Positions 11,508-47,757 of a stretch of 47,757 nt of DNA are shown here, in pieces. The DNA is from Parafrankia sp. EUN1f. GTDB taxonomy: Bacteria; Actinomycetota; Actinomycetes; Frankiales; Frankiaceae. The stretch's first letter is position 1; every line of letters starts with the position of its first letter. The DNA is taken from assembly GCF_000177675.1 (NCBI RefSeq), contig NZ_ADGX01000065.1:1-47757 (forward strand), in the 5' to 3' direction. The translations under genes and the position numbers were made by a program. The notes below the pieces were generated by a model that had not been told where the DNA came from, did no database searches, and was given only the letters and a program-made list of their open reading frames with translations.

Positions 11508-11569
11508 CGCATGCGGTCAGGGGCTGCCTAGGGGAGTCGCGGCCGGGCCGTCGCTGCCACGATCGGCCC

Positions 11570-12796
11570 ATGGTCTCCTCTCCCATCCCGGCCGGCGGGC
11601 AGGCATCCCCGGTGCGGCGCGATCGGCACACGAGACGGGCGGCGCTCGGCACCGGGCTGGTCACGCTGGTGGGCGGGGCAGTGGCCAGTGCGCCCACGGC
11701 GAGCGCGGTGACGGCGGCGCAGCCCCGCCCCCAGGTCACGGTCACCGACCTCGGCGCGCCGGACCTCCTGCAGACGAGCATCATCCCGCGGATCGTCAAC
11801 AACCGCGGAACGGTCGCCGCCTACGGGGCCATCGGCGGAACGCAGCCGCTCCAGGCCTTCACCTGGACCGCCGGCACGATCACCCGGCTGGAGGCGCCGA
11901 CGGCCGACCCGGGCGTGTTCAGCTTCCCGGTCGGGCTGAACACCGCCGGCGCGGTCGCCGGGTACACCACGGTCGGCGGCACCCTGCACTCGCTGTTCTG
12001 GCCGGCCGGGAGCACGACCCCGACGGACATCTCCGCGCCGGGCGGCAACAGCCATCCGCTGGCCCTCAACGACGCCGGGCAGGTGCTGCTCGTCGAGGAG
12101 GGCCGGCCGGCCCTCTGGGACAACGGCGTCCGCACCGTGATCGCGCCGTTCCCGGAGACCACCGCGGTGGGCCTGAACGCCGCGGGCCAGGTGTTCGGCA
12201 CCGGCCGCCAGGGTGACCAGCCGGACCGGGCCTTCGTCTGGAGCCCGTCCGGCACCGTCGACGTCGGGCCGTTCGGCTCGACCACGACCGTCACCGGCCT
12301 CAACGACCGGGGCCAGCTCGTCGGGTACGGCGCGGTCGCGTCGGCGGGGCAGCGCACGCACGGCTTCGTGTGGACGCCCGCCGCCGGTGGCCGTCCGGCG
12401 AAGCTGACCGACATCGGCACCCTCGCCGGGCTGGAGACCGAGGCGCACGCCGTCAACAACGCGGGCGTCGTCGTCGGTCGCAGCGCCACCCCGACGGGCT
12501 GGCACGCGGTCTCCTGGGCGAACGGCCGGCTCACCGATCTGGGCGTGCTCGTGCGCGGGAAGCCCAGCCAGGCGCTGGCGCTCAACGAGACCGGTGACGT
12601 CGTCGGGTGGGGCACCGCCGCGGACAACCGCCAGCATGCCGCTCTGTGGCGGGGCGGCCGGGCGATCGACCTCGGCCTGCCGGCGGGCTTCGTCCTGACC
12701 TACGCGATCGACGTCAACGACGACGGCCTGGTGCTCGGCTACGGCATCCACGAGAACGGGTCCGTGCACGGCTTCGTCTGGTCGGTGACGCGCTGA
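11570..12796 (+). CDS. Secreted HAF-repeat protein with Tat-like signal
   Basis: A 408-residue protein. The N-terminus contains TRRAALG followed by a hydrophobic stretch and a signal-peptidase-like TASA site near residue 47, suggesting export, possibly by Tat. The mature part is built of repeats of the form A-x-x-(L/V)N-x-x-G-x-(V/L)-x-G (for example VGLNAAGQVFG, VTGLNDRGQLVG, AHAVNNAGVVVG, ALALNETGDVVG), each with a nearby short beta-rich segment. This matches the HAF repeat family, probable extracellular beta-propeller proteins of unknown function. No enzyme motif is seen. ATG 11570 has no ribosome site but a CACGAT box ends six bases upstream, so it may be leaderless. It lies 62 bases after the CCR gene; a role in the polyketide pathway is not evident. 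Confidence 0.8.
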   Translation: MVSSPIPAGGQASPVRRDRHTRRAALGTGLVTLVGGAVASAPTASAVTAAQPRPQVTVTDLGAPDLLQTSIIPRIVNNRGTVAAYGAIGGTQPLQAFTWTAGTITRLEAPTADPGVFSFPVGLNTAGAVAGYTTVGGTLHSLFWPAGSTTPTDISAPGGNSHPLALNDAGQVLLVEEGRPALWDNGVRTVIAPFPETTAVGLNAAGQVFGTGRQGDQPDRAFVWSPSGTVDVGPFGSTTTVTGLNDRGQLVGYGAVASAGQRTHGFVWTPAAGGRPAKLTDIGTLAGLETEAHAVNNAGVVVGRSATPTGWHAVSWANGRLTDLGVLVRGKPSQALALNETGDVVGWGTAADNRQHAALWRGGRAIDLGLPAGFVLTYAIDVNDDGLVLGYGIHENGSVHGFVWSVTR

Positions 12797-12881
12797 GATC
12801 CGGACGACGGTGGCGGCGGGCACGCCCGGGCCGGGGACGGACAGGGGATGAACTGGGGTGAGCGTGGCGCTGGGCAGCCGC

Positions 12882-12887
12882 TATTTT
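12882..12887 (+). promoter_or_regulatory. Putative -10 box, leaderless start of the PPOX-fold gene
   Basis: TATTTT ends six bases before ATG 12894, with no ribosome site between. This supports the ATG rather than the upstream GTG at 12858 as start, because the protein family usually begins close to this Met. Confidence 0.35.
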
Positions 12888-12893
12888 CCGACT

Positions 12894-13349
12894 ATGGCGG
12901 TCACTTTCGACGAGAAAGCCCAGGCCCTGCTGGACGCGGCCAACCTGCCGGTTGTCGCCACCGTGAACGCGGATGGAAGTCCGCACTCGTCCATCGTGCT
13001 CATGAAAAGAGCGGAACACGTCCTCTACTTCCCGGTCCACCGGAACCGCCGTACGGAACGCAACATCTCGCGTGACCCCCGGGTGAACATCTCCCTCTAC
13101 GACCTCGGGGATCCGTACACGTCCATCGAGATCCGCGGGCTGGCGGAGGTCCTCCCCGAGGGCGGGAACGACCTGGCACACGAGCTGATCCGCCGCTACA
13201 TGAACGAACGGCACGACCTGGACGATCCCACCCGGGTCGCCGTCCGGGTAATACCGCAGAAGGTCATTCATTTTCCCGACCCCGCGAGGACCGTCCCGAA
13301 AAGATTCAGGCTCGACGAGTTCGGCCGCGACGCCGGCGCGCCGTTCTGA
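12894..13349 (+). CDS. PPOX-class (pyridoxamine-phosphate-oxidase-fold) F420/FMN-dependent protein
   Basis: A 151-residue split-barrel flavin or F420-binding protein. The opening MAVTFDEKAQALLDAANLP is typical of the family. VATVNADGSPHSSIV is its signature strand, and the basic patch HRNRRTERNISRDPRV is where cofactor phosphate is bound in relatives. Members reduce or oxidise small substrates with deazaflavin or FMN; the substrate cannot be inferred. It precedes the DppB-type permease on the same strand by 58 bases and could be the first gene of that transcription unit. Confidence 0.85.
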   Translation: MAVTFDEKAQALLDAANLPVVATVNADGSPHSSIVLMKRAEHVLYFPVHRNRRTERNISRDPRVNISLYDLGDPYTSIEIRGLAEVLPEGGNDLAHELIRRYMNERHDLDDPTRVAVRVIPQKVIHFPDPARTVPKRFRLDEFGRDAGAPF

Positions 13350-13407
13350 GCAGCACGCGAGAAGCAAGACGCGAGAACGGTGCGGTGCGGTGCCGTCGTG
13401 ACGGAGA

Positions 13408-14391
13408 ATGGTTGAGGACGTGGCACGTTACAGTCTTGGACGGCTCCTGCAGGGCGTCTTCGTGATCTGGGCCGCCTACACCCTGTCGTTCGTGGTGCTC
13501 TACGCGCTGCCCGGCGACCCGGTCGCCATCATGATCGGGCCGAACAACGCGTACACGCCCGAGGACTTCGCGGCGCTCCGGCACGATCTCGGCCTGGACC
13601 GCTCCCTGCCGGTGCAGTACCTGACCAGCCTCGGCGACCTGGTGCGGGGTGACCTCGGCCGGTCGGTGCAGTCCGGCCAGCCGGTCACCTCGCTGATCGC
13701 CGACGCGCTGCCGCCGACCGCCCTGATGGCCGGGCTCGGGCTGGCGCTCGGTGTGCTGCTCGGGGTCGGGCTGGCCCTCGCGACGAGCCTCACCCGGCTG
13801 TCCTGGCTGCGCCAGGTGCTGCTGTCGCTGCCCCCGCTGGGGGTGGCGGTGCCCGGGTTCCTCATCGGGCTGGTTCTGTTGCAGTGGTTCTCGTTCTCCT
13901 GGCACCTGTTCCCGGCGATCGGCAACGAGGGCTGGCGCAGCCTGGTCCTGCCCGCGCTGACGATCTCGCTGCAGCCCGCCGCGGTCATCGCCCAGATCCT
14001 CACCCGCAGCCTCGACCACGAGCTGCGGCAGAACTACATCGGCACCGCCCGGGCCAAGGGCGCGAGCCCGCTCCGGGTCAACGTCCGGCACGCGCTGCGC
14101 AACGCCGCGCTGCCCGCCCTGACCATCGCCGGCCTGCTCGTCGGCGGCCTGCTGGCGGGGGCTGTCGTCGCAGAGGTGATCTTCTCGCGCAGCGGGCTCG
14201 GCCAGATCGCGCAGAACGCGGTGAGCCTGCGGGACCTCCCGGTGGTGCAGGGCGTCGTTCTGCTCGGCTCGGTCGTGTTCGTCCTCATCAACCTGCTGGT
14301 CGACCTGCTCTACCCGATCCTTGACCCCCGGATCGCGCGCACCCGGCAGGCGCCTCGGGGTACGTCCGCGCCGGTGACCCTGACCACCTGA
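13408..14391 (+). CDS. Peptide/nickel-type ABC transporter permease, DppB-like
   Basis: About 327 residues with six predicted membrane helices. It has the family N-terminal periplasmic motif (ALPGDPVAIMIGPN... LGLDRSLPVQY... LGRSVQSGQPV) and the cytoplasmic EAA loop GTARAKGASPLRVNVRHALRNA, which contacts the ATPase. It is the B-type permease of an oligopeptide/dipeptide/nickel importer. The partner genes (C-type permease, ATPase, binding protein) are not adjacent but sit on the other strand at 21.1-25.6 kb. GTG 13420 is an alternative start with a better distance to GGAG (13403-13406). Downstream lie the LLM oxidoreductase and hyuAB, which suggests that the imported compound is their substrate. 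Confidence 0.9.
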   Translation: MVEDVARYSLGRLLQGVFVIWAAYTLSFVVLYALPGDPVAIMIGPNNAYTPEDFAALRHDLGLDRSLPVQYLTSLGDLVRGDLGRSVQSGQPVTSLIADALPPTALMAGLGLALGVLLGVGLALATSLTRLSWLRQVLLSLPPLGVAVPGFLIGLVLLQWFSFSWHLFPAIGNEGWRSLVLPALTISLQPAAVIAQILTRSLDHELRQNYIGTARAKGASPLRVNVRHALRNAALPALTIAGLLVGGLLAGAVVAEVIFSRSGLGQIAQNAVSLRDLPVVQGVVLLGSVVFVLINLLVDLLYPILDPRIARTRQAPRGTSAPVTLTT

Positions 14392-14437
14392 CCCGTCAGC
14401 GGCGAAAGAACGGAAAAGTGGAAGAGGAGTTCGTCAC

Positions 14438-15520
14438 GTGAAGTTCATCGGCCTGGTCGCCCTCGCGCGGGGACCGGAGCTGTCCACCGGCCGGGTGCCC
14501 ACCGAGTCGGAGGTGTTCCGCCGTGCCATCGACACGGCGGTCTTCTTCGAGGAACTCGGCTTCGACGGATTCGGGATCGGCGAGCGGCATCATCCGCCGT
14601 TCCTGGCGACCGCGCCGACGGTCGTGCTCGGCTACATCGCGGCCGTCACGTCGAGGATCCGCCTGTTCACCGGCGTGACGCTGCTGTCCGTCCTCGACCC
14701 CGTGCGGGTCGCCGAGGACTTCGCCACCATCGACCACCTGTCCGGCGGCCGGATCGAGCTGATCATCGGCAAGGGGGCCGGCCCGGACCAGACGGAACTG
14801 TTCGGGCTCACCCGGGAGCAGGCACGCGACGCCCTCACCGAGAAGTTCCGGCTGCTGCACCGGCTGTGGACCGAACGCGGGGTCACCTGGTCCGGGACCC
14901 TGCGCCCGGACCTGCACGACGTCACCACGCTGCCGCGGCCGCTGCAGAGCGGGCCCCCGCACGGCCGGCCGCGGATCTGGCACGGCAGCAGCACGAGCAC
15001 CGAGTCGGTCGACCTCGCCGCCGAATACGGCGACCCGGTGATGTTCTCCAACGCGTCGGCCCCGACCGAGGAGTACGCCTGGCTCGCCGAGCGGTACGCG
15101 AAGAAATGGGACGAGTTCGGCCGCGAACCCGCGGCGCGCCACACCGGCGCCGGCACCCCGGCGCTCTACACCGCCCGCACGTCCCAGCAGGCGCTCGCCG
15201 ACTACCGGCCGGTCTACGAGGCGCGGCTGCGCGCGCAGGGCGGCATCCCGGCGCTGCCCCGCTTCCCCACCCTGGAGGACTTCGCCGAGCGGGGCCCGGC
15301 GCTCGTCGGCAGCCCGGCCCAGATCATCGACAAGGTGCACCGGGACGCCGAGCACCTCGGTCACACCTCGCTGATCTTCAGCACCGAGCCGGAGGGCCTT
15401 GCGGAGGCCCGCTGGCGGGAGAGCCACGAGATCTTCGCGAGCGAGGTCGTGCCGGAGCTGCGCCGGTCGATCCCGGACCCGCCCTGGCCGTCGACGCCGT
15501 CGACGCCCGCGACACCGTGA
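14438..15520 (+). CDS. LLM-class (luciferase-like) flavin-dependent oxidoreductase
   Basis: A 360-residue TIM-barrel monooxygenase-type protein. The family features FGIGERHHPPFLATAPTVVLGYIAA, TGVTLLSVLDPVRVAEDFATIDHLSGGR and GKGAGP (phosphate or flavin binding) are clear. GTG 14438 follows GAAGAGGAG by eight bases. Such enzymes oxidise alkanes, amines, sulfonates or ketones with reduced FMN or F420. The stop overlaps the GTG of hyuA (GTGA), so the two are translationally coupled. The substrate is presumably related to the lactam/amide that HyuA-HyuB would open. Confidence 0.88.
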   Translation: MKFIGLVALARGPELSTGRVPTESEVFRRAIDTAVFFEELGFDGFGIGERHHPPFLATAPTVVLGYIAAVTSRIRLFTGVTLLSVLDPVRVAEDFATIDHLSGGRIELIIGKGAGPDQTELFGLTREQARDALTEKFRLLHRLWTERGVTWSGTLRPDLHDVTTLPRPLQSGPPHGRPRIWHGSSTSTESVDLAAEYGDPVMFSNASAPTEEYAWLAERYAKKWDEFGREPAARHTGAGTPALYTARTSQQALADYRPVYEARLRAQGGIPALPRFPTLEDFAERGPALVGSPAQIIDKVHRDAEHLGHTSLIFSTEPEGLAEARWRESHEIFASEVVPELRRSIPDPPWPSTPSTPATP

Positions 15521-17697
15521 GCGCAGCCGGCTACCGGATCGCCGTCGACGTGGGCGGCACCTTCACCGACCTGGTGCTGCGCCGGCCGGACGGCGGCGAG
15601 GTGATCCACAAGACCAGCTCCACCCCGGCCGACCCGACCGACGGCTTCGTCGCCGGCCTGCGCGGGCTCGCCACCGCGGAGGGCCTGGACCCGGGCACCC
15701 TGCTCGGCCGCACGGACCTGATCGTGCACGGCACCACCATCACGACGAACGCCCTGATCACCGGCCGGCACGCGCGGACGGGCCTGCTGACGACCGACGG
15801 CCTGCGCGACGTCATCCTGGCCCGGCAGGGCAGCCGGGAGGACCAGTTCGACTCGCGGGCCAGGCCGCTGCCCCACCTGGTGCCGCGCCACCTGATCCGT
15901 ACCGTGCGCGGGCGCGTCGACCGCACCGGGACGGTGGTGACCCCCCTGGCCGAGGTGGACGTGCGTGCCGCGGCCCGGTGGTTCGCCGAGAGCGGGGTGG
16001 ACGCGGTCGCCGTCAGCTTCGTGTTCTCCTTCCTCAACGACGCGCACGAGCGGCGGGCCGGCGAGATCCTGGCCGAGGAGCTGCCCGGGGTGTTCGTCAC
16101 GCTCGCCGCGGGGCTGGTGCCCGAGGTACGGCTGTTCGAGCGCACCACGACCGCCGTGCTCAACGCCTGCGTCGGCCCGGTGCTGCGGGACTACCTCGAC
16201 CGGCTGGCCCGGCGGCTGGCCGGCCTGGGCTACCGGCGCCCGGTGCTGCTCGTGCAGTCGGCCGGCGGCGTGATCAGCCTGGACGGGGCCGCCCAGCGCC
16301 CGGTGGAGACCTTGCTCTCTGGCCCGGCGGCGGCACCGGCCGCCACGGCGCGGATCGTCCGTGCCCTGGGCGTCACCGACGCGATGACGGTCGACATGGG
16401 CGGCACCAGCTTCGAGGTCAGTGTCTCCCACGACGGCCGCACGGAGACGACGAGCCGGGGGCAGGTCGCGGGACATCCCGTGTGCCTGCCCATGCTCGAC
16501 ATCAGCACGATCGGGGCCGGTGGTGGGTCGGTGGCGTGGGTGACGCCCGGCGGCATGCTGCGGGTCGGCCCGCGCAGCGCCGGAGCGGTGCCCGGCCCCG
16601 CCTGCTACGGCCGGGGCGGCGACGAACCGACGGTCACCGATGCCGACCTGCTGCTCGGCTACGTCGACGGACGGGGATTCGGCGACGGGCTGGCCCTGTC
16701 CCGCGCCGCGGCCGAGCGTGCCGTCGGCGCGCTCGCCGGGCGGCTCGGAATCGGGCTGACCGAGGCCGCCGCCGGCGTCTTCCAGACCGTCAACGCCGCC
16801 ATGGCGGACAGCCTGCGGCTGGCGACCGTCCGCCGCGGGCTCGACCCGCGCCGCTTCGCGCTGGTCGCGGCTGGCGGCGCAGGCCCCGTCCACGCCGCCG
16901 CCCTCGCCCGGGAGCTGGGAATCGCGCTGGTCGTGGTGCCGCCGGGAGCCTCGGTGCTGTGTGCCCGGGGGATGCTGCACGCCGATCTCGTCCGTTACGG
17001 TGTGCACTCGCTGGCCGGGCGGGGGGAGCGGCCGGAGGCCGGGGTGTTCGACGCGGCCTTCCGCCGGCTGGCCCGCGAGGCCGTCGAGGACCTGGGCGTC
17101 GCGCGGACGGAGGACGCGGAGCAGGCCGGCGGCGAGCCGGACCGGGGGCCCGCGGTGAGCCCGGTGTCGTTCACGCGGTTCGCCGATCTGCGTTACGTCA
17201 ACCAGGTGTACGAGATCTCGGTGCCGTTCGCGGCGGACCTCGAGGCGGATCTCGAGGCCGGGGGCGCGGGTTCGCCCGAGCCGGCCCGCACCGACGCCGC
17301 CGCGGTCGACGCGGTGCTCGCCCGGTTCCATGAGCTGCACGAACAGCGCTACGGCTACGCGCAGCCGGGCGTGCCGGTCGAGGCCGTCAACCTGCGCCTG
17401 CTCACCCGGGCGCCCACACTGGGGGGCCTGGCACCCGTGCATCCCACATCCCCTTGCCCGGCGCCCCCGACTCGGGCACCCGTGGCACCCGCCGTGCCGG
17501 CCGGCCGCCGGGAGGCCTGGTTCGACGGCCGGTACCAGAAGGTCGACGTGTACCAGGCCGAGACGCTGGCGGCGTACGGCCGGCTGGCCGGCCCCGTCCT
17601 GGTGGAACAGGCGAACACCACGGTCGTGGTGCCCCCGGACTTCGCGGTCGAGCGGGTCGGCGACGGCACACTGCTGCTCCATCCCGTGCAGGCGTGA
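15517..17697 (+). CDS. hyuA: Hydantoinase/5-oxoprolinase family ATPase subunit (HyuA-type)
   Basis: A 726-residue protein with the actin-like ATP-binding start AVDVGGTFTDLVL (residues 9-21). Family blocks include HGTTITTNALI, DMGGTSFEVS, DISTIGAGGGSVAWV, SAGAVPGPACYGRGG with TVTDADLLLGY, and a C-terminal domain ending VLVEQANTTVVVPPDF. HyuA-type subunits couple ATP hydrolysis to opening or carboxylation of cyclic amides and ketones (hydantoin, 5-oxoproline, caprolactam, acetone) with HyuB. GTG 15517 overlaps the preceding stop, and its stop overlaps hyuB's first GTG, so three genes form a tight operon. The exact ring substrate is not readable from motifs. Confidence 0.9.
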   Translation: MSAAGYRIAVDVGGTFTDLVLRRPDGGEVIHKTSSTPADPTDGFVAGLRGLATAEGLDPGTLLGRTDLIVHGTTITTNALITGRHARTGLLTTDGLRDVILARQGSREDQFDSRARPLPHLVPRHLIRTVRGRVDRTGTVVTPLAEVDVRAAARWFAESGVDAVAVSFVFSFLNDAHERRAGEILAEELPGVFVTLAAGLVPEVRLFERTTTAVLNACVGPVLRDYLDRLARRLAGLGYRRPVLLVQSAGGVISLDGAAQRPVETLLSGPAAAPAATARIVRALGVTDAMTVDMGGTSFEVSVSHDGRTETTSRGQVAGHPVCLPMLDISTIGAGGGSVAWVTPGGMLRVGPRSAGAVPGPACYGRGGDEPTVTDADLLLGYVDGRGFGDGLALSRAAAERAVGALAGRLGIGLTEAAAGVFQTVNAAMADSLRLATVRRGLDPRRFALVAAGGAGPVHAAALARELGIALVVVPPGASVLCARGMLHADLVRYGVHSLAGRGERPEAGVFDAAFRRLAREAVEDLGVARTEDAEQAGGEPDRGPAVSPVSFTRFADLRYVNQVYEISVPFAADLEADLEAGGAGSPEPARTDAAAVDAVLARFHELHEQRYGYAQPGVPVEAVNLRLLTRAPTLGGLAPVHPTSPCPAPPTRAPVAPAVPAGRREAWFDGRYQKVDVYQAETLAAYGRLAGPVLVEQANTTVVVPPDFAVERVGDGTLLLHPVQA

Positions 17698-17720
17698 GCC
17701 GCGTGAGCCGCGTGAGCCGC
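17694..17720 (+). repeat. Triple gtgagccgc repeat giving three in-frame GTG starts
   Basis: Three perfect 9-bp copies begin at 17694, 17703 and 17712. Each starts with GTGA, and the first overlaps the hyuA stop codon. Confidence 0.85.
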
Positions 17721-19565
17721 GCGGACGCGCCGGGGCCGGCCGACCTCATGCCGGCCGACCCCGTACTGGCCAGCGTCGTCGACAACCGGCTGCACGCCAT
17801 CGCCGAGCAGATGGCCGACGCGATGCTGCGCTCGTGCCGGTCGATGGTCTTCCAGAGCCGGGACTTCGTCACCGGGGTGTTCACCGCCGCCGGCGACTGG
17901 GTGGCGACCAAGGACTTCATCCCGATTCTGGCCGGCTCGCTGCCCAGCGCCTACGCGGGCATCGTCGACCGGTTCGCCGGCGACGTGCACCCCGGTGACG
18001 TGTTCCTGCTCAACGACCCCTACCACGGCAACAACCATCCGCCCGACCTCACTGTGATGAAGCCGGTGTTCCACCAGGGCACGCTGCGCTTCTGGAGCGT
18101 GACCAAGGGGCACCACGCGGACATCGGCGGCAGCGTGCCCGGCTACAACCCCGACGCCGTCGACTGCTGGCAGGACGCCCTGCGCATCCCGCCGGTGCGG
18201 CTGCTGCGCGAGGGCGTCGCCCAGCGGGACGTGTGGGAGCTGATCCTGAGCAACCTGCGGCTGCGCGACGTCGTCGAGGCGGACCTGTGGTGCCAGATCG
18301 GCGCGACGAACGTGGGCGAGCGCGAACTGGTCGCCATGCTGGACGTGTTCGGCGTCGAACCGGTGCTGGCCGCCGTCGACTACCAACTCGAGGCGTCGCG
18401 GCGGCATATCCGCGCGGAGATCGGCCGCATTCCGGACGGGGTGTACCGCTCGGTCCGCCACCTCGACGACGGCGGGACGCACCACCGGGCGCCGATCGCC
18501 GTCCGCCTGGAGCTCATCGTGCGGGGCGAGCACGCGGTCCTCGACTTCACCGGGTCCGACCCGCAGGTCCTCGGCTACGCGAACTCGACCTACGCCAACA
18601 CCGCCGCCGCGGCCCTGGTCGCCCTCTACGCCGTCACCGACCCGACGCAGCGGCGCACCAGCGCGGCGCTCGCCGCGGTCGAGATCCGCACCAGGCCGGG
18701 CACGATCGTGCACGCGGTGGAGCCGGCCGCGACCACGCTGTGCACGATCACCACCGGCGAGGTGATCATCGAGACGATCTGGGACGCCATCGGCCAGGCC
18801 GACCCGGCGCGCACGAACGCCGGCTGGTGCCGCAGCTACGGCTTCGCCGCGATGGGTGTCAACGAGCGGACCGGGCGGCCCTTCGGCGTCGCCGGGGCGC
18901 TCAAGGGCGGCTCCGGGGCCACCGACGGGTTCGACGGCTGGGACGTGATCGGGCCGCCGCCGGCGATGGGCGGCGGCCGTGAGATCGACGTCGAGCTGCA
19001 CGAACTGGCCGCCCCGACGACCATCCTCAGCCAGGAGTACGAGACCGACTCGGCCGGGGCGGGGCAGTGGCGCGGCGGGCTCGGCGGGGTGTCGCGCTGG
19101 CGGATGGACCAGGACGACCTGGCCGTGCTGTGCGTCGGCTCCGGCACGTCGGCGCAGACCGTCCCGTTCGGGCTGGCCGGCGGGCGGCCCGGACCGCGCA
19201 ACCGCAGCCGGGTCCTGCACGTGGACGGCCGGGTCAGCGAGCCGCTCCCGAACTCGCTGTTCCGGCTCGACCGGGGTGACATCGTCGAGATCCACACCGC
19301 CGGCGGGGCCGGCCACGGGGATCCGCGCCGGCGCGTGGCCGAGGCGGTGGCCGCCGACGTCCGCGACGGGCTGGTCTCCCCGGCGGCGGCCCGCGAGGTC
19401 TACGGGGTGGCGATCGACCCGAGCACGGGGGACGTCGACCGGGCGGCCACCGCGCTGCTGCGCGCCGATGCCGGCGGCGGGCCCGGCGGGCCTGGTGGCC
19501 TTGGCGGGCCTGGTGGGCCTACCGCACCCGCCGCTCCGGACCCAGCCGCACCGGCAGGCCCCTGA
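17694..19565 (+). CDS. hyuB: Hydantoinase B/oxoprolinase family subunit (HyuB-type)
   Basis: About 623 residues. Conserved blocks are NRLHAIAEQMADAMLRSCRS, GDVFLLNDPYHGNNHPPDLTV, GHHADIGGSVPGYNP, the Gly/Thr-rich core LDFTGSDPQVLGYANSTYANT, and C-terminal GRPGPRNRS with TAGGAGHGDP. It partners HyuA in ATP-dependent ring opening or carboxylation. Three tandem copies of gtgagccgc (17694-17720) give three in-frame GTG starts, the first overlapping the hyuA stop. The C-terminus carries a Gly/Pro-rich collagen-like tail. Its last 47 bases overlap the end of the convergent P450 gene. Confidence 0.9.
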   Translation: MSRVSRVSRADAPGPADLMPADPVLASVVDNRLHAIAEQMADAMLRSCRSMVFQSRDFVTGVFTAAGDWVATKDFIPILAGSLPSAYAGIVDRFAGDVHPGDVFLLNDPYHGNNHPPDLTVMKPVFHQGTLRFWSVTKGHHADIGGSVPGYNPDAVDCWQDALRIPPVRLLREGVAQRDVWELILSNLRLRDVVEADLWCQIGATNVGERELVAMLDVFGVEPVLAAVDYQLEASRRHIRAEIGRIPDGVYRSVRHLDDGGTHHRAPIAVRLELIVRGEHAVLDFTGSDPQVLGYANSTYANTAAAALVALYAVTDPTQRRTSAALAAVEIRTRPGTIVHAVEPAATTLCTITTGEVIIETIWDAIGQADPARTNAGWCRSYGFAAMGVNERTGRPFGVAGALKGGSGATDGFDGWDVIGPPPAMGGGREIDVELHELAAPTTILSQEYETDSAGAGQWRGGLGGVSRWRMDQDDLAVLCVGSGTSAQTVPFGLAGGRPGPRNRSRVLHVDGRVSEPLPNSLFRLDRGDIVEIHTAGGAGHGDPRRRVAEAVAADVRDGLVSPAAAREVYGVAIDPSTGDVDRAATALLRADAGGGPGGPGGLGGPGGPTAPAAPDPAAPAGP

Positions 19566-40524: not shown

Positions 40525-40570
40525 CGGCCCGTTCCTCGCGCCCGGAGGGGGACGGGGGAGGAACGGGCCG
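40525..40570 (-). terminator. Hairpin after the LUD gene
   Basis: Perfect 13-bp arms cggcccgttcctc and gaggaacgggccg with a 20-base loop begin about 20 bases past the LUD-protein stop. No T-run is present. Confidence 0.55.
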
Positions 40571-40590
40571 GTACCCGGCGGAGCGGGGAG

Positions 40591-41223
40591 TCAGTAGCCG
40601 ATGACCTCGCGGACCAGGACCACCGTGCCGCGCTCCGGGAACGCCTCGCGCTCGAGGATCAGGATGCGGCCGATGAACGAGCCCTGGTTGTAGAGTTCCT
40701 GCAACCGCTGGTCTTCGCGGGGCAGGCTGTAGGTGCGCAACCGGCGCAGTCCGGTCTCGAGGTCCGCGACGATCTTCTGCGCACCGACGACCCAGTAGGC
40801 CAGCTTGGCTCCGGAGGCGTAGGGGGCGAACTGGCTGCCACTGGCGGAGGCGACGAGCAGGCGTCCGTCCTCGGTCACCGCGTGGACGCTGCCGACGACG
40901 ACCTCCGGGGTGGCCCCGAGCCGGATCGTCTTCCACACGTCGTCCGCGGACGGCGGGCCGGCCTGGGCGCGCACGGAGACGTAGTCACCCGAGGTGTCGA
41001 TGTCCGCGGTGATCCCCGAGAGCTCCAGCGTCTGGCTGGACGCGGTGAAGATCTCGCGGTCGCGGGGGAGGAGCTGGCCGAGCAGGGTCCGGGCGTCGGC
41101 CGCGGTGTCGACGATGTGGACGACGAAGCCGTTGTCCCGCAGTGCGGCGGCCGCGCGGTTCAGGGCCGCCTCGTCGGCGGGTACGGAAAAGGCCTCGTCG
41201 AGGACGGGTGCTTCGACAGTCAT
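40591..41223 (-). CDS. LUD-domain protein (LutC/YkgG family)
   Basis: A 210-residue LUD-domain protein. Typical features are LRDNGFVVHIVDTAADAR, IFTASSQTLELSGI, GSVHAVTEDGRLLVAS and the end block YWVVGAQKIVADLETGLRR. Relatives include LutC of the LutABC lactate oxidase, but LutA and LutB are absent here. Stand-alone LUD proteins are common in actinomycetes and of unknown role. It is transcribed divergently from the HxlR regulator with a 118-bp gap and ends before a strong hairpin. Confidence 0.88.
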   Translation of the reverse strand: MTVEAPVLDEAFSVPADEAALNRAAAALRDNGFVVHIVDTAADARTLLGQLLPRDREIFTASSQTLELSGITADIDTSGDYVSVRAQAGPPSADDVWKTIRLGATPEVVVGSVHAVTEDGRLLVASASGSQFAPYASGAKLAYWVVGAQKIVADLETGLRRLRTYSLPREDQRLQELYNQGSFIGRILILEREAFPERGTVVLVREVIGY

Positions 41224-41341
41224 GTCTGATCTCTCTGTGGATGGGTCGGCGTTCCGAGTGGAGGCCAGTCATATTCTCGACAATGATGAAGCTGCTCCGG
41301 AAGACGGCACTTTTTTCTGCCTTGGTTACCTGGAGGGAACT

Positions 41342-41743
41342 GTGACGACTGGCGCCGCCGACGAGACCGACCACCACCGGATCGCGACCGTCCTGGCCGC
41401 CCGTGGCGAGGATGCCTGCCATGTGCGGGAGGTACTGGACCGCATCGGTGACAAGTGGTCGATAGCGGTCGTGCACAAGCTGGCCGACAGTCCGCGGCGA
41501 TTCTCTGAGCTGCGCCGGGACATTCCCGGCATCAGCCAGCGAATGCTGACCGCGGCGCTGCGTGGCCTGGAACGGGACGGATTCGTCGACCGGACCGTGC
41601 ATGCGTCGGTGCCACCCCGGGTGGACTACGCCCTCACCCCGCTGGGACGTGCCCTGTTGGACAGCACCTGGCCGCTGATGAACTGGGTCCTGGGGCACAC
41701 CGACGACATCAGGGACGCCCGCCGGGAGTACGACGCCCGGTGA
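41342..41743 (+). CDS. HxlR-family winged-helix regulator
   Basis: A 133-residue HxlR regulator: CHVREVLDRIGDKWSIAVVHKL, RRFSELRRDIPGISQRMLTAALRGLERDGFV and the wing DYALTPLGRALLD. GTG 41342 follows GGAGG closely. The Cys at the start of the domain is in the position used for redox sensing by YodB/QorR-type members. Divergent orientation to the LUD gene suggests that it controls it, through the shared 118-bp spacer. Such regulators typically respond to quinones, aldehydes or oxidants. Confidence 0.9.
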   Translation: MTTGAADETDHHRIATVLAARGEDACHVREVLDRIGDKWSIAVVHKLADSPRRFSELRRDIPGISQRMLTAALRGLERDGFVDRTVHASVPPRVDYALTPLGRALLDSTWPLMNWVLGHTDDIRDARREYDAR

Positions 41744-41866
41744 ATCCAGGCGAGGTCGACCCGCGGTGCTTCAGGCGTGCGCCGGCGGAGCCCGGCCGCC
41801 GTCTGGTGGCCAGGGCCACCTGGCAACAAGACTAGACAAAACGGGCGCAGGGTTGTTTGGCAATCC

Positions 41867-41917
41867 GCAAGAGTTGAGGATTTTGGTGTCAGAACGACCG
41901 CGATCCTCAACTCTTGC
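41867..41917. repeat. 15-bp perfect inverted repeat, possible bidirectional terminator
   Basis: Arms gcaagagttgaggat and atcctcaactcttgc flank 21 bases. The local sequence is less GC-rich than its surroundings. It lies between the HxlR gene (plus) and the genes that end at 42 kb (minus), where a two-way terminator is expected. No T-run is present, and an operator or mobile-element end is also possible. Confidence 0.5.
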
Positions 41918-41968
41918 CAGGCAGCAATCGCAGCCGGTAGTGGTCGAGCTGGTGGGCCGAGCAGGGGC

Positions 41969-42205
41969 TCACACCGGCGGCCGGGCGGTGGGCATCCGGC
42001 GCAGCGTGTCCAGGACGACGGACTCCGGGACGTCGCGGACGAGCTCGGGGCCGCGCGGGCCGTCCAGCACGAACGTGAGCCCGGTCTGGACGGACTTCTT
42101 GTCCAGCAGCATCAGCCGGACGAGCATCCCGAGGTCCACCCCGGTGGGCAGGGCAGTCGGCAGGCCGTAGCCGGCGACGACGGTGTGGTGCTCCTCGACC
42201 CGCGC
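41969..42205 (-). pseudogene. C-terminal fragment of a 3-dehydroquinate synthase-family gene (AroB / RifG-like)
   Basis: The minus-strand frame ending at the stop 41969-41971 reads VEEHHTVVAGYGLPTALP, then VRLMLLDKKSVQTGLTFVL and LVRDVPESVVLDTLRRMP. This is the last ~75 residues of dehydroquinate-synthase-type cyclases, including the conserved DKK and the GLP...LP turn. The NAD-binding and catalytic domains are missing. Upstream, the frame runs without similarity into the 3' end of the molybdoenzyme gene, whose stop is at 42228-42230. No plausible start or ribosome site is present. It is a remnant at a recombination junction. The end wording resembles the aminodehydroquinate synthases of ansamycin clusters as much as AroB of primary metabolism; I cannot decide by eye. 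Confidence 0.7.
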
Positions 42206-42227
42206 CGGGCCGCGGGGGCTTTCGACG

Positions 42228-44912
42228 CTAGCCGCGCGAAAGCCCCGGGTTCGGCGCGTGCCGGCGATCTGGGGTGTTTGCGGGGTATGCCGCGGGGACG
42301 CCGGTGGCCGGGCTCGGTTGGGCACGCAGCAGCCGGAGCACCTCCGGCGGGGTGAGCGGGATCCTCGTCACGGCCTCGGGTCCCACGATGCCGGGGAGCG
42401 ATGGAAACGCGAGCGTCCCGCCCGCGCCCGTCCCGGCGGGCGTTCGGGCGGGCGTTCGGGCGGGTGGCGGACCGGGCCGATGGGCGAGCGCGTCGGCGAC
42501 CGCGTTCGCGATCGCCGCCGTCCCGCCGATCACACCGCCCTCCCCGGCTCCCTTCACGTCCCCGCCGCCGCGGCCGGCCGCGGGAGGTGCCGGCGCCTGG
42601 GCGTGCGCGACCCACACATCCGCCGGCATGCTGCTCACGGTGGGCAGCGGGTAGCCGGCGGCGCCGGCCAGGGGGAACCCGTCGTCGGTGTAGGGCAGCT
42701 CCTCGAACAGCGCGTTGCCGATCGCGAAGCCGATGCCCCCGTGGACCTGACCCGCCAGCATCATCGGGTTGAGGACGGTGCCGCAGTCGTCGAACGCGCG
42801 GTGGCGCAGCGCGGTGACGACGCCCGTGCCCGGGTCGACCTCGACGACCGACACATGCACGCCGTAGCCGAAGGGAATGCCGGCCGGACGGAACTCCGCC
42901 TCGGCGGCCAGCTCGCCCGTCCCGGTCGTCGGGCCGGCCGCCTGTGCCACCGACGCCCAGTCCAGCGCCGCGCCGGTGCCGTCGGTGCGGCCGAACCCGT
43001 GCTCGGTGAGCGCGACAGCCGACGCCGGCACGCCGAGCAGGCGCGCGGCGACCGGGACCGCGCGCTCGACCAGGGCCCGCGCGGCGAGCCGCACCGCGCC
43101 GCCACCCACCGCCGCCGACCGGCTGGCCATGGTGCCCGCGCCCCACCGCAGCCGGTCAGTGTCACCGAGCCGCACCACCACGTCGTCGAGCGGGATCCGC
43201 AGCTCGTCCGCGACGATCTGGGCGAGCATCGTCTCGTGCCCCTGGCCGCTGGGCGCGAGCCCGGCGGCCACCTCCACGACGCCGTACTCGTCGACCCGCA
43301 GCCGGGCCAGCTCCGGCTTGCCGTCGCCGCTGGGCTCGACGAACATGCCGAGACCGACGCCGAACAGCGGGCCGGCCGGGTCGCTCGCCCGCCGCTGTGC
43401 CTGCTCCCGCCGCAGGTCCCGGTAGCCCACCAGGTCCAGTGCCCGGCGCAGCAGCCCCGGGTAGTCCCCGCTGTCGTGGGGCGGCCAGGGCATCGAGCCC
43501 TGCGTGAGATGCAGCGTCGTCCGCGGGCCGTACGGGAGTTCGTCCGGCCCGATCAGGTTGCGCAGCCGGACCTCGGCCGGGTCCACACCGACCTGGGCGG
43601 CGACCAGGTCGACGATCCGTTCCATGACGAACGTCGCCGGGGCGGCGCCGACGCCGCGGAACGGGCCCGCGGGGGTCTTGTTGGTGAACACCGCCAGGGA
43701 CTCGGCGGCGTAGGCGGGAACGCGGTAGAGGCCGGGTACCGCCGCGGGCGTGGCGATCGCCTCGACGGCCGCGTTGGTGAACGAGTAGGCGCCGATGTCG
43801 CTCGCCATGCGGTCGCGGATCGCGAGGATCCGGCCGGACGCGTCGTGCCCGACCTCGACGTCGTGGTGCTGGTCGCGTCCATGCACCGTCGCGACGGTGT
43901 GCTCGGCGCGGTCCTCGACCCACCCGACGGGCCTGCCCAGCAGCCGGCTGAGCCAGGCGACCACGAACTCCTCGGGATACGGCTGCATCTTCGTGCCGAA
44001 CGCCCCGCCGACATCCGGCAGCACCACCCGCACCGCGTCCGCGGGCAGCCCCAGCGCCGCCGCGACGGCGTCCCGCATCCCATGCGGTATCTGGGTGGGG
44101 GTCCAGACGGTGAGCCGCCCCGCGGCGCGGTCCCAGTCGGCGACGACGCCGCGGGTCTCCATCGGGGCGCCGGCCTGCCGGGCGATCGAGAGGCGCACGG
44201 AAAAGGTGAGCGGCGCCGCGGCAAGCGCCGCCGTCACGTCGCCGCGTACCGCTCGGACGACCTGCTCGACGTTGTCGCCCCATCCGGGGGCGCTGCCGCG
44301 TCCTGCACTGTCGTCCCGCGCAGCGCCGTCGTCCCCCCGCGCGGGCGTCCCGGGAGGTCCACCGGGCTGGTCGGCGGCCCGCGGGTGCAGCGTCGGCGCC
44401 CCCGGCCGCAGGGCCGCGTCGAGGTCGGCCACGACGGGCAGCGGCGCGTAGTCGACCCGCACCAGGTCGGCGAGGTCCTCGGCGGCGTAGCGGTCGGCGG
44501 CGACCACCACCGCGACCGGTTCGCCCACATAGCGAACACGGTCGGTCGCGAGCGCCGGCTGCGCGGTGGGCAGCCCCGGCACCGGGCCGCTGGCGCTGGG
44601 CAGCAACGGCGGCCCGCCGGGGAAGTCGGCGGCGCTCAGCACCGCCACCGCCCGTCGATCGCCCCGTGCCGCGCTGACGTCCACCGCGCGCAGCAGTGCG
44701 TGCGGCTCGGTGCTTCGCACGAACACGGCCTGCGCCTGTCCTGGCAGCCGCAGGTCCGCGACGAACCGTCCGCGCCCACGCAGCAGCCGGTCGTCCTCAC
44801 GCCGCCGCGCCGGCGTCCCCACCACGGTGGGACGGCCGCCGGTCTCGCCCCGGGTGCCGGCGGCGGAGCGCGTCACGCCGGCGGTACCGGCATCGGGTCG
44901 CAGGGTCGTCAA
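42228..44912 (-). CDS. Xanthine-dehydrogenase-family molybdopterin-binding subunit (CoxL/XdhA-like)
   Basis: An 894-residue large subunit. The N-terminal GRGRFVADLRLPGQAQAVFVRS and HALLRAVD begin the family domain. DVGGAFGTKM binds molybdopterin, and VKGAGEGGVIGG near the C-terminus carries the catalytic Glu. The active-site loop reads PAGPFRGVGAAPATF, lacking both the AYxCSFR of true CO dehydrogenase and the common RGAGR form, so CO is not the likely substrate; a purine, aldehyde or other heteroaromatic hydroxylation is. The start overlaps the stop of the small subunit (ATGA). A Pro/Arg-rich tail with short repeats is atypical. It completes a minus-strand operon. Confidence 0.9.
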   Translation of the reverse strand: MTTLRPDAGTAGVTRSAAGTRGETGGRPTVVGTPARRREDDRLLRGRGRFVADLRLPGQAQAVFVRSTEPHALLRAVDVSAARGDRRAVAVLSAADFPGGPPLLPSASGPVPGLPTAQPALATDRVRYVGEPVAVVVAADRYAAEDLADLVRVDYAPLPVVADLDAALRPGAPTLHPRAADQPGGPPGTPARGDDGAARDDSAGRGSAPGWGDNVEQVVRAVRGDVTAALAAAPLTFSVRLSIARQAGAPMETRGVVADWDRAAGRLTVWTPTQIPHGMRDAVAAALGLPADAVRVVLPDVGGAFGTKMQPYPEEFVVAWLSRLLGRPVGWVEDRAEHTVATVHGRDQHHDVEVGHDASGRILAIRDRMASDIGAYSFTNAAVEAIATPAAVPGLYRVPAYAAESLAVFTNKTPAGPFRGVGAAPATFVMERIVDLVAAQVGVDPAEVRLRNLIGPDELPYGPRTTLHLTQGSMPWPPHDSGDYPGLLRRALDLVGYRDLRREQAQRRASDPAGPLFGVGLGMFVEPSGDGKPELARLRVDEYGVVEVAAGLAPSGQGHETMLAQIVADELRIPLDDVVVRLGDTDRLRWGAGTMASRSAAVGGGAVRLAARALVERAVPVAARLLGVPASAVALTEHGFGRTDGTGAALDWASVAQAAGPTTGTGELAAEAEFRPAGIPFGYGVHVSVVEVDPGTGVVTALRHRAFDDCGTVLNPMMLAGQVHGGIGFAIGNALFEELPYTDDGFPLAGAAGYPLPTVSSMPADVWVAHAQAPAPPAAGRGGGDVKGAGEGGVIGGTAAIANAVADALAHRPGPPPARTPARTPAGTGAGGTLAFPSLPGIVGPEAVTRIPLTPPEVLRLLRAQPSPATGVPAAYPANTPDRRHAPNPGLSRG

Positions 44913-45391
44913 GACCGCTCACTCGGTGCCGGGCCGATCAGGGACTCGGCGGCGCGCAGGATGTTGACGTAGCCGGTGCACCGGCACAGGTGCCCGTCGA
45001 GCGCGGCGACGAGGTCGTCGCGGCCCGGCGGGGCCGGCAGATCCAGCAGGTGACGCAGCGTCAGGACGATGCCGGGCGTGCAGAAGCCGCACTGCAGTCC
45101 GTGGTGCTCGCGCAGCGCCGACTGCACCCGGTCGAGCGTGCCGTCCGCCGCCACGCCCTCGACCGTGGTGACCTCGGCCCCGTCAGCCTGCACCGCGAGC
45201 ACCAGGCACCCGCGTACCGGCTCGCCCGAGAGCAGGACGGTGCAACTGCCGCACCGGCCCTGCTCGCAGCCCAGGTGCGTGCCGGTCAGGCCGAGGTGCT
45301 CGCGCAGGAGGTCGGCCAGGCTCAGCCGGGCGGGGACGTCGAGCCGGTGCCGGGTGCCGTTGACGGTGACCTCGACCGGATGCTCGCTCAC
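44909..45391 (-). CDS. [2Fe-2S] subunit of the molybdoenzyme (CoxS-like)
   Basis: A 160-residue protein with two [2Fe-2S] clusters. The plant-type site is CEQGRCGSC with the fourth Cys in VRGC. The helical C-terminal site is CGFCTPG with CRCTGY. It passes electrons from the molybdenum site to the FAD subunit. It overlaps the genes on both sides by four bases, so all three subunits should be made in equal amounts. Confidence 0.95.
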   Translation of the reverse strand: MSEHPVEVTVNGTRHRLDVPARLSLADLLREHLGLTGTHLGCEQGRCGSCTVLLSGEPVRGCLVLAVQADGAEVTTVEGVAADGTLDRVQSALREHHGLQCGFCTPGIVLTLRHLLDLPAPPGRDDLVAALDGHLCRCTGYVNILRAAESLIGPAPSERS

Positions 45392-46389
45392 CGCGCCGCC
45401 ACCAGGGCCCGGTCGATGGCCCGGTGCACGAGCTCCCCGGCGACCTCGCGGCAGTAGTCGCCGCCGTCGGCGCCCGCCCCGGCCGCCCCGTTCGTTCCGC
45501 TCGCCCCGTTCGTGCCGCCCTCACCATCGGGCAGTTCGGCGTCCGCGGCCCGGGCCGCGTCGAGGTCCTCGCGGGTGAGCAGGGCGATCAGGGCCGGATC
45601 GAGTGGACCGCCGTCGAGGACGGCCCGTTCCGCGCGCCGGGCCCGCACGGGCCGTGCCGCGACACCGAACAGCGCGATCCGGGCGGCGGCGACGGTGCCG
45701 TCGGCCCGGCGGGCGACGGTGGCGAGCGCTCCGCAGAGGGCGACGGTGGCGCGCGGTGCGACCTCGACGCACGCGCCGCCCACCGCGAGGTCGCCGGTGT
45801 CGTCGGTGCCGCCGCCGGCGTCGCCGGGGGTGCCTGTGGGCACCGCGGGCGACGGCGTGGTCGTGGCCGACGGGATCTCCACCGCGACGGCGACCTCGTC
45901 GGGGGCGAGCGCCGTGCGGCCGGGCCCGAGGTAGAACGCGTCCGCGCCGATCCGGCGGTCGCCGCGTGGGCCGCGCGCGTGCACCACGCCATCCAGCGCG
46001 ACCAGCAGGGCGGGCAGTTCGGCGGCCGGGTCGGCGTGCGCCAGGCCGCCGACGAGGGTGCCGCGGGTCCGGGTCTGCGGGTGCCCGACGCGCCGGATCG
46101 TCTCGGCGAGCAGCGGGCACTCGCCCGCGAGCGCGTGGTCCCGCTCGATCTGGCGCTGGGTCACCCGGGCGCCGATGAACAGGGTTGCCTGCGAGGTCCG
46201 GTCGATCCGGTCCAGGCCCGGCACCGCCCGCAGGTCGACCAGCAGCGGTGGGCGCAGCGCGCGCCGGGCCAGTGCCGGCAGCAGGCTCTGCCCGCCGGCG
46301 AGCACCCGGGCGCCGGGCTGCTCTGCCAGCGCCGTCACCACATCGTCCAGCGTGGCCGGGCTGCGGTAGTCGAACGGCGCCGGCTTCAT
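45388..46389 (-). CDS. FAD-binding subunit of the molybdoenzyme (CoxM-like)
   Basis: About 333 residues. FAD-binding motifs are ARVLAGGQSLLP (residues ~28-40) and TRGTLVGGLAHADPAAELPA. Start MKPAPFDYRSPATLDD at ATG 46389 fits the family and has GGGACGG about nine bases upstream; GTG 46398 is possible. Two Gly/Thr- and Gly/Ala-rich insertions (near TGTPGDAGGGTDDTG and GGTNGASGTNGAAGAG) are not part of the normal fold. It is the first gene of the three-subunit operon. Confidence 0.92.
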   Translation of the reverse strand: MKPAPFDYRSPATLDDVVTALAEQPGARVLAGGQSLLPALARRALRPPLLVDLRAVPGLDRIDRTSQATLFIGARVTQRQIERDHALAGECPLLAETIRRVGHPQTRTRGTLVGGLAHADPAAELPALLVALDGVVHARGPRGDRRIGADAFYLGPGRTALAPDEVAVAVEIPSATTTPSPAVPTGTPGDAGGGTDDTGDLAVGGACVEVAPRATVALCGALATVARRADGTVAAARIALFGVAARPVRARRAERAVLDGGPLDPALIALLTREDLDAARAADAELPDGEGGTNGASGTNGAAGAGADGGDYCREVAGELVHRAIDRALVAAR

Positions 46390-46863
46390 CCGGCGCACCC
46401 GTCCCGGCGGGGACGCGCTGCCGCACGCGGACCGGCGGCGCGCGCACCGCCCGGCGGCGCCGGCTCGTCGCGGTTGATCGACATGCTCGGACCTTCCCTC
46501 GTCGGACGAAGCGCCTGCGGCTACCGTCCACCGCGAAGATCGTCCGAACGACCCCTAAGGGCCCCCATTTCGGCGGCTGCCGCGGACTGCCCCGGTGGCC
46601 GGTCCAGCGGGGAAGGGGTCACGCCTGTCTCCCGGGGACAGCGGCCATCCCCTGAGGTATCCCTGTTACACCCCTATGACACGGATGTTACGGGCATACC
46701 GCGCTGACCTGCGGTAATGCGCTCCGATGGGCGCACGGTTCTCGGTGGGTGGGTGCGGCCGGGCGACGATGAGGCCGCTCGCCGCCCAGCAAGCGCCCGT
46801 CGTCCAGCCCGCCGGATCCGGTTTGCGGGTATGACCGGCGTGGACGACCACCAGGGGTCAGCA
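46390..46863. promoter_or_regulatory. Divergent region between molybdoenzyme operon and LuxR/LAL regulator
   Basis: About 470 bp without a supported gene. The stretch around 46660-46720 (tatccctgttacacccctatgac) is distinctly less GC-rich and is the likely promoter zone. Nothing else recognisable was seen. Confidence 0.35.
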
Positions 46864-47757
46864 ATGGTATTGGTTGAACGAGACAGCGAACTCCGTCAGC
46901 TCGACCGGCTTCTGGAGGAATGCTTCGACGGAAGGGGCAGGGTCGCGCTCATCGAGGGGGCGACCGGCAGCGGCAAGACCGAGCTGCTACGTTACGCCGC
47001 CGCCCGCGCTCAGAACGCCGGCATGATGGTCCGAAGCGCGAACTGCGCGAGTTCCGAAGCGGTTCTTCGGTTCGGGGTGGTGAACCAGCTTCTCTACGGG
47101 GCTGGGATTCCGGCGGAGACGACGCAGCGGATCCTGCGGCGGCCCCTGGCCGAGGACCCGGAGACCGACGGCGCGGCTGATCTCGCGCACGTCCTGCACG
47201 AGCTGGGTCTGATTCTGCTCGACCTCAGCGCACGGCAGCCGCTGCTGATCACGGTGGATGATGTGCAGTACGCCGACGAGCTGTCGCTGGCCGCGCTGTT
47301 GCACCTCGTGCGCCGGCTCGATTCCGCCCGGATCGTGGTGCTGCTCGCCGGCAGCCTCGCCTCCCGGCCGCTGGACGTCCCGTTCCGGGTCGGGCTCACG
47401 AGGTCGCCCGGATTCCGGTCCCTACGGCTGGCGCCGTTGTCCCTGACCGGTGCCACGGAGCTCGTGGCACGGCAGTCGGACGAGGTGACGGCCCGCCGGC
47501 TCGCGCCGGCGCTGCACGAGGCCACCGCCGGCAACCCGCTGCTGCTCACGGCCCTCACCGAGGACTTCCGCGAGGTGGGCGGCGCACGGACCGAGGGTTT
47601 CGGACTGGCGCTGCTGGCCTGCCTGCACCGCGGTGAGCCGATCCTGATCGAGCTGGCTCGCGCGTTGGCGGTGCTGGAGGCACCGATGCCGCACCCGCGC
47701 GCGGTCGACCTGCCGGCGGTGCCGCCGGCCCCGGCCGGCGGCGGCCTGGCGGACGGG
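46864..47757 (+). CDS. LuxR/LAL-type ATPase transcriptional regulator, N-terminal part; runs off the window
   Basis: The frame is open from ATG 46864 to the last base (298 codons) and continues outside. VERDSELRQLDRLLEEC starts the domain; Walker A is GATGSGKT (residues ~35-42) and Walker B LLITVDDVQYADE (~128-140). Further blocks, such as GNPLLLTAL, are typical of large LuxR-family (LAL) activators. The C-terminal LuxR helix-turn-helix, if present, is beyond the edge. ATG 46864 follows AGGGG by six bases; ATG 46831 is in frame but lacks a site. It is divergent from the molybdoenzyme operon and may regulate it or an adjoining metabolite cluster. Confidence 0.85.
   Translation, partial: MVLVERDSELRQLDRLLEECFDGRGRVALIEGATGSGKTELLRYAAARAQNAGMMVRSANCASSEAVLRFGVVNQLLYGAGIPAETTQRILRRPLAEDPETDGAADLAHVLHELGLILLDLSARQPLLITVDDVQYADELSLAALLHLVRRLDSARIVVLLAGSLASRPLDVPFRVGLTRSPGFRSLRLAPLSLTGATELVARQSDEVTARRLAPALHEATAGNPLLLTALTEDFREVGGARTEGFGLALLACLHRGEPILIELARALAVLEAPMPHPRAVDLPAVPPAPAGGGLADG

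Follow-up and report, generated by a model that had tools for sequence, protein, structure and literature searches.

Why do some 75 codons from the C-terminal end of a dehydroquinate/aminodehydroquinate synthase lie directly behind a molybdoenzyme operon in Parafrankia sp. EUN1f, and from which pathway do they come? Parafrankia is a lineage of actinorhizal symbionts, and one of the two candidate pathways makes 3-amino-5-hydroxybenzoic acid (AHBA), the starter molecule of ansamycin antibiotics. The stretch analyzed, here called the window, is the entire contig NZ_ADGX01000065.1 (C332; 47,757 nucleotides) of a draft assembly of 9.35 Mb in 396 contigs (99.13% completeness, 4.86% contamination). 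The fragment, here called the stub, is very probably a truncated, non-functional rifG gene left over in a Parafrankia ansamycin locus that has been rearranged repeatedly.

In the available portions of two reports, RifG converts 3,4-dideoxy-4-amino-D-arabino-heptulosonate 7-phosphate (aminoDAHP) to aminodehydroquinate in AHBA synthesis (PMC8788734, PMC4551226). A RifG profile built from 69 intact proteins, with the fragment excluded, matched the stub at 88.5 bits (hmmsearch, i-Evalue 1.3e-26) over profile positions 259-333 of 335, and the stub was the single match among the window's 596 six-frame segments. The initial annotation, which had recognized a C-terminal remnant of this enzyme family of about 75 codons, was thus correct on this point. 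Homology spans 42211 to 41984 on the minus strand, followed by a short tail and a TGA stop at 41969-41971; the frame contains ...RVEEHHTVVAGYGLPTALPTGVDLGMLVRLMLLDKKSVQTGLTFVLDGPRGPELVRDVPESVVLDTLRRM... and is open for 118 codons from a GTG, or 132 from stop to stop, with high GC content at third codon positions. The interval had been drawn as 41969-42230, which holds up to about 42211, whereas the last ~19 bases belong to a hairpin that holds the molybdoenzyme stop. Aligned to 18 homologues, the stub is 58-67% identical to them, and its best match among plasmids (tblastn, E 3e-16, 59%) is a gene within an AHBA cluster. Pfam returned no match up to E 1. NCBIfam returned one sub-threshold hit alone, TIGR01357 (aroB), at 14.2 bits (E 0.018; curated cut-off 305); three intact RifG-type proteins score 264-279 bits with this model, also under the cut-off.

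Judged by its sequence, the stub is of the RifG (AHBA-pathway) type and not AroB, the shikimate-pathway 3-dehydroquinate synthase of the same superfamily. Over aligned codons, it is 60-72% identical to the six AHBA-type genes compared (Kitasatospora purpeofusca 72%, Frankia canadensis 68%, the EUN1f RifG paralogue 62%, CL7 RifG 60%) and 29% identical to EUN1f AroB. A profile of 28 AroB proteins from EUN1f and its relatives gave no match at E<=10 in the window's six-frame segments. In a 98-row tree, made by a quick method after 14 of 112 rows were dropped as genomes or genes fetched twice, AroB and AHBA-type proteins separate on fully supported long branches, and the stub, which fills 23% of the columns, stands on the AHBA side. 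A 29-row tree agrees, again with a fully supported split, so the comparison with AroB and RifG that had been proposed as a check came out for RifG in both trees. Approximately unbiased (AU) tests were run in one set on 74 of the 98 rows and in later sets on 29 chosen rows; on the latter, forcing the stub inside AroB is 64 log-likelihood units worse and is rejected (AU p 5e-5). Furthermore, 46 of the 57 named-genome loci found via alignment to the stub carry a RifK (AHBA synthase) gene at >=69% identity within the stretch retrieved; these 57 loci include 12 Frankiaceae records and overlap with the separately fetched genomes of relatives.

A full-length RifG query found three places in EUN1f, namely an intact gene at C369:2793-3785 (71%), whose open frame spans C369:2706-3899, AroB at C369:39068-40048, and the stub. 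The intact paralogue has both DHQ_synthase and DHQS_C domains, and the stub is without the N-terminal DHQ_synthase domain. The missing ~260 codons were not found anywhere in the EUN1f assembly, a draft of 396 contigs. Confined to positions 259-333 of 335, roughly the final fifth of the gene, the stub is a remnant of a two-domain family member rather than a working member. Neither the locus nor the rest of the draft assembly yielded the missing part, which makes the stub a pseudogene by truncation. A C-terminal piece without the N-terminal domain should have no activity, and we infer that the stub is dead and makes nothing. It retains 16/16 columns conserved at >=99% and 7/7 columns conserved at 95-99% among the 69 intact homologues, 11 of which deviate more from the consensus than the stub does. 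Differences at third codon positions exceed those at second positions for all six RifG-type genes (25 vs 13 for K. purpeofusca), a pattern taken here as a mark of past selection on the protein. Because the conserved residues and the codon-position pattern are kept, the truncation is probably not old, though no date follows. The stub had been proposed to date the junction next to it; it does so only loosely, in that the junction is confined to EUN1f among 97 genomes and the conserved residues are kept, and it yields no date.

At the junction, DNA similarity to the intact rifG genes of relatives extends to window position 42212 at most, and the DNA of the molybdoenzyme large subunit matches that of Parafrankia colletiae (G001) down to 42327, from which point the operon is collinear with P. 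colletiae contig C136. On the other side, collinearity with a further Parafrankia relative, G004, ends at 41763. Collinearity therefore breaks on both sides of the stub, in agreement with the initial annotation's placing of a rearrangement junction between gene blocks here. The annotation also had the remnant cut off where the molybdoenzyme operon begins; both are on the same strand, so the remnant adjoins the operon's end. A strong hairpin spans the junction, and its loop carries the molybdoenzyme stop codon (42228-42230); the minus-strand fold of 42200-42260 has a predicted energy of -43.4 kcal/mol (z -4.4). The upstream part of the stub's frame runs into the 3' end of the molybdoenzyme gene, which is read in a different frame. 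Among the 97 genomes searched with this DNA, the junction was seen in no genome but EUN1f. No tRNA that could mark an attachment site was found in the window or in stretches L073, L186, or L153. The stop codon of the stub is 33 bases away from a dispersed repeat, which has five further copies in EUN1f (C356, C373, C260, C196, and C380; 84-87% identity) and is also found in G004. The 15-bp inverted repeat within it (GCAAGAGTTGAGGAT) is strongly conserved.

The surroundings identify the locus. The window's amide synthase is the sole PF00797 match in the EUN1f genome, 59-60% identical to those of P. colletiae and of the relatives G002 and G003, and 48% identical to that of Kitasatospora mediocidica. 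Matches to this family occur in 8/34 genomes searched, within Parafrankia in EUN1f (G000) and G001 to G003 and not in G004 or G005; those of two genomes from another genus are 32-35% identical to the window's. The window's hydroxylase is 51% identical to its CL7-cluster homologue and 62-64% to those of Parafrankia relatives. On another EUN1f contig, C347, RifK-L-M genes are followed by a polyketide synthase (PKS) gene with AMP-binding, KR, PP-binding, KS, and AT domains, whose start (A-KR-ACP-KS-AT) is, by domain content, an ansamycin-type loading module. In G002, a single contig carries RifK-L-M, three PKS frames (2820, 2273, and 1134 codons open), the amide synthase, and the hydroxylase. Set against this order, C347 ends within the first PKS gene and the window starts within the second, where window positions 17-2326 align to residues 1492-2222 of the second G002 PKS (PKS2). 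C347 and the window are thus most likely pieces of one locus, separated by a gap of about 5 kb. The locus would then hold what defines an ansamycin cluster, an AHBA-type loading module on C347 and a type I PKS and amide synthase in the window, provided that the link drawn between the two is right.

Queries from ansamycin clusters matched only the amide synthase, the hydroxylase, and the RifG stub in the window, where no further AHBA gene was found; the stub's original neighbors are consequently a matter of inference. The suggestion that the window once bordered an AHBA pathway was too weak, as the window itself belongs to an ansamycin locus (amide synthase, PKS, hydroxylase). The hydroxylase and an IS605-type OrfB are located between the last two PKS genes, whereas in G001, G002, and G003 the hydroxylase comes after the amide synthase. 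The G002 PKS (G002:C1:2812-21482; L195, L197) apparently comprises only three genes with, to judge by length, about three extension modules, which is very short for an AHBA line terminated by an amide synthase.

Comparison with relatives indicates that the locus was shuffled more than once. Contig C12 of G004 carries the genes of EUN1f C347 up to L073:10373 (blastn, 94.2%), then the LUD-HxlR pair, separated from them by about 35 bases as counted by eye, then ~365 unmatched bases, and then genes found on EUN1f C396. Since G004 is contiguous across the position matching window 40560, the place of the ansamycin genes is taken in G004 by no more than a few tens of bases. In P. colletiae C136, the molybdoenzyme operon is 1.4 kb (one M20-type gene) from the hydantoinase genes, which lie at 14.4-19.5 kb in the window and are there separated from the operon by 22.8 kb. 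An ABC permease gene (13408-14391) inside the PNPOx/hydantoinase block maps elsewhere in P. colletiae. Many window genes are on C136 in another order and orientation, which argues that the locus was rearranged repeatedly. A simple inversion as the cause of the interleaved blocks was rejected because the G004 block and the P. colletiae block each have two halves that keep their relative orientation; this rejection depends in part on the C347-window link. No single-event model was found for the interleaved blocks. At the right-hand edge, the final frames of the window and of C396 correspond to separate parts of a single P. colletiae gene (G001, 9683-13102), so C396 probably follows the window.

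Table 1. Features of the window (positions in the 47,757-nucleotide contig)
Feature	Position	Strand	Basis or remark
Type I PKS protein end (DH-KR-ACP)	155..2485	+	Pfam; open at the contig's left edge
FAD monooxygenase, like ansamycin-cluster hydroxylases	2632..4452	+	Pfam FAD_binding_3
IS605-type OrfB (TnpB)	4613..5755	+	Pfam OrfB_IS605, Cas12f1-like_TNB, HTH
Last PKS module (docking-KS-AT-ACP)	5724..9200	+	Pfam; 62% to the third G002 PKS (PKS3)
RifF-type amide synthase (arylamine N-acetyltransferase family)	9304..10089	+	PF00797, 1.4e-39, at 9361-10044
PNPOx and hydantoinase A and B block	11669..19490	+	Collinear with G001:C136:41028-48429 (blastn)
Backbone segment (LUD-domain gene and HxlR regulator)	40560..41763		94.4% to G004:C12:19092-20295; Pfam LUD_dom, HxlR
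Dispersed ~100-bp repeat with 15-bp perfect inverted repeat	41835..41935		DNA search, six-copy alignment, fold z -5.7
rifG remnant (aminodehydroquinate synthase-type)	41969..42211	-	~75 homologous C-terminal codons, short tail, TGA
Strong hairpin across the junction	42202..42258		10-bp perfect arms 42215-42224 / 42237-42246
Molybdopterin-binding large subunit, carbon monoxide dehydrogenase/xanthine-dehydrogenase-family oxidoreductase	42228..44912	-	Pfam MoCoBD_1/2; collinear with G001:C136
Small [2Fe-2S] and medium FAD subunits of the same oxidoreductase	44909..46398	-	Pfam Fer2/Fer2_2, FAD_binding_5
AAA-ATPase protein, N-terminal part	46717..47757	+	Pfam AAA_16; later part apparently at the end of C396

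Outside this locus, Frankia and Parafrankia genomes hold a second set of AHBA genes. A RifG match occurs in 6/6 Parafrankia (EUN1f included) and 13/13 Frankia genomes, and in 0/16 from the family's other genera. In all 18 Frankia and Parafrankia relatives examined (L052-L066, L069, L070, and L072; stretches of 12-20 kb), J-K-L-M-N-I-G stand all together, and these 18 stretches gave no match to RifF/amide synthase, RifH, or a PKS ketosynthase. This stand-alone cassette contains the intact paralogue of the stub. In EUN1f, it is in two pieces with a gap, with N, I, G, and part of M on C369 and J on C228. AHBA synthase loci are located on C347 (complete) and on C259 and C228 (each truncated at a contig end), and RifL was found only on C347. 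The advised genome search for an intact paralogue and further AHBA genes was accordingly productive, yielding RifG on C369, three AHBA-synthase loci, and RifL and RifM on other contigs. The 5' parts of AHBA synthase at C228:1-764 and C259:18-782 (L075, L074) are 99.1% identical, have different flanks, and lie at contig edges; the pair probably reflects a recent duplication at which the assembly broke. Beside the EUN1f cassette and its intact rifG lie genes for an adenylation-carrier-thioesterase protein and an ABC transporter (L006:4026-8936, C369), which suggests a small AHBA-derived product.

These observations can be joined into a mechanism. The stub would once have been part of the locus's own AHBA genes, and recombination would have removed the first ~260 codons of rifG and left the remaining 3' end immediately after the molybdoenzyme operon. 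The result would be a mosaic, with C347 carrying the loading module and RifK/L/M, the window carrying the PKS end and the amide synthase, and the rest shuffled relative to P. colletiae. Loss of rifG may have been tolerated because the separate cassette (C228/C369) may supply the enzyme in trans. The ansamycin stretches of G001, G002, and G003 (80, 90, and 26.5 kb) contain no RifG by profile, all three being cut by a contig end, and their genomes have the cassette. Such a distribution is consistent with a locus dependent on the cassette, although the contig ends mean that supply in trans is not proven. There is partial precedent: the discussion in the chaxamycin paper, as far as its text is available, refers to a related function supplied from outside a cluster (PMC4551226). 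AroB is a further possible substitute for the RifG step; according to the available part of one report, AroB, AroD, and AroE took aminoDAHP on to aminoshikimate in an engineered E. coli strain (PMC8788734). More tentatively, with the balance tipped slightly against it, Parafrankia ansamycin loci could be split pathways, in which K, L, and M stand beside a compact AHBA-primed PKS, G, I, J, and N come from a cassette conserved for another purpose, and the stub is the scar of a redundant rifG.

Several results weigh against the reading of the stub as a dead rifG of this ansamycin locus, and four other explanations were weighed. A looser grouping of AroB plus the fragment against all other rows has an AU p of 0.49 (29 rows) and is not rejected; a fragment attached basally on the AHBA side would also fit this grouping. 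In 11 of the 57 RifG-type loci, the fetched stretch (under 14 kb in four of them) lacks an AHBA synthase, so the tie between enzyme type and AHBA has exceptions. The first result, together with TIGR01357 being the sole curated-library match, could be taken to favor a remnant of a primary-metabolism AroB copy, which the initial annotation had left open as a misplaced gene. However, intact RifG-type proteins match TIGR01357 too, and the silent AroB profile, the gap between 29% and 60-72% identity, and the rejected placement inside AroB refute this origin, leaving it a negligible probability. The source of the stub within the RifG family is less settled, as about 75 residues are too few to place it there. 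A Frankia plus Parafrankia origin is not rejected (AU p 0.60 on 74 rows, 0.47 on 29 rows), nor is one from Parafrankia alone (0.66, 74 rows) or a position with the rifamycin-like group (0.51, and 0.09 inside that group; 29 rows). In the 98-row tree, the stub fell among other AHBA clusters in a group of 15 rows with a Shimodaira-Hasegawa-like approximate likelihood ratio test (SH-aLRT) value of 96, a placement unsupported by the AU tests. The stub could therefore descend from an old duplication of EUN1f's conserved cassette that recombined here, rather than from the locus's own AHBA genes. The AU value for Parafrankia and the copied AHBA synthase 5' part on C228 and C259 (765 bp), which indicates that this cassette does get copied, speak for such a descent. 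Nevertheless, the stub is 60-62% identical to the EUN1f cassette RifG and at most 68% to any Frankia or Parafrankia copy, it stands outside the single clade of 19 cassette RifG copies (SH-aLRT 99, 98-row tree), and the closest sequence found is the RifG-type gene of K. purpeofusca NRRL B-1817 (L081; 71%). The 60-62% identity excludes a recent duplicate of the cassette rifG, and an ancient one is unlikely while still deserving consideration.

The other two explanations concern the stub itself and the contig. The frame and all near-invariant residues are intact, so there is no direct sign of decay, and it is the truncation that makes the case for a dead gene. All 23 near-invariant columns in an open frame with high third-position GC content, closer to the consensus than 11 of the 69 intact enzymes, could also mark a small protein with a function of its own or a C-terminal domain with a regulatory role. 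Against this stand the missing DHQ_synthase domain and the overlap of the frame's upstream part with the molybdoenzyme gene; moreover, the other matches, in 21 matching genomes of 196 searched, all lie in open frames of 349-508 codons, with no second free-standing copy seen. A working small protein is thus highly improbable. Slightly less so, and improbable all the same, is an assembly artefact in which C332 joins two unrelated places at 42.2 kb. No relative shows the junction, which makes misassembly formally possible, and the draft character of the assembly and the nearby dispersed repeat point the same way. The repeat copies are only ~100 bp long and 84-87% identical within the genome, though, and a false join should leave the continuation of rifG on another contig unless it was lost in a gap, whereas the missing part is on none. 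The flanking locus is also rearranged at many further points. Finally, the C347-window link is drawn from the gene order of G002. A truncated rifG left behind in a rearranged ansamycin locus accounts best for these results.

Known systems place the stub in context. It shares family and C-terminal residues with RifG and CxmG of the rifamycin and chaxamycin clusters, as described in the available portions of PMC8788734 and PMC4551226, and lies in the same kind of locus; the likeness was judged via RifG-type genes fetched from rifamycin-like clusters. Unlike those clusters, the EUN1f locus has only ~75 C-terminal rifG codons, and the only AHBA genes found next to its PKS start are K, L, and M. 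The K. purpeofusca gene, in contrast to the stub, is intact and stands in an I-G-N-J / K-L-M-loading-module layout, and the K. purpeofusca loading module (60% to that of C347) is among the closest outside Parafrankia. Near the ansamycin region, a nucleoside diphosphate (NDP)-hexose 2,3-dehydratase gene is encoded at C396:133015-134481 (L187:5016-6482) and a glycosyltransferase at window 39070-40398; given these two genes, the product of the locus may be glycosylated. No title or abstract opening surveyed describes Frankia or Parafrankia as having an AHBA cassette or an ansamycin locus, which is weak evidence, as few subscription journals were covered. In the available text of PMC5765111, the two mentions of Frankia both stand in the reference list.

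A previously unexplained fragment of ~75 codons is now tied to the AHBA pathway, and the window is recognized as belonging to a rearranged ansamycin locus of a Parafrankia genome. The stub alone is an ordinary truncated pseudogene, a historical trace rather than a working part, and of modest interest. The more interesting by-product is a testable split between the PKS locus and the conserved AHBA cassette.

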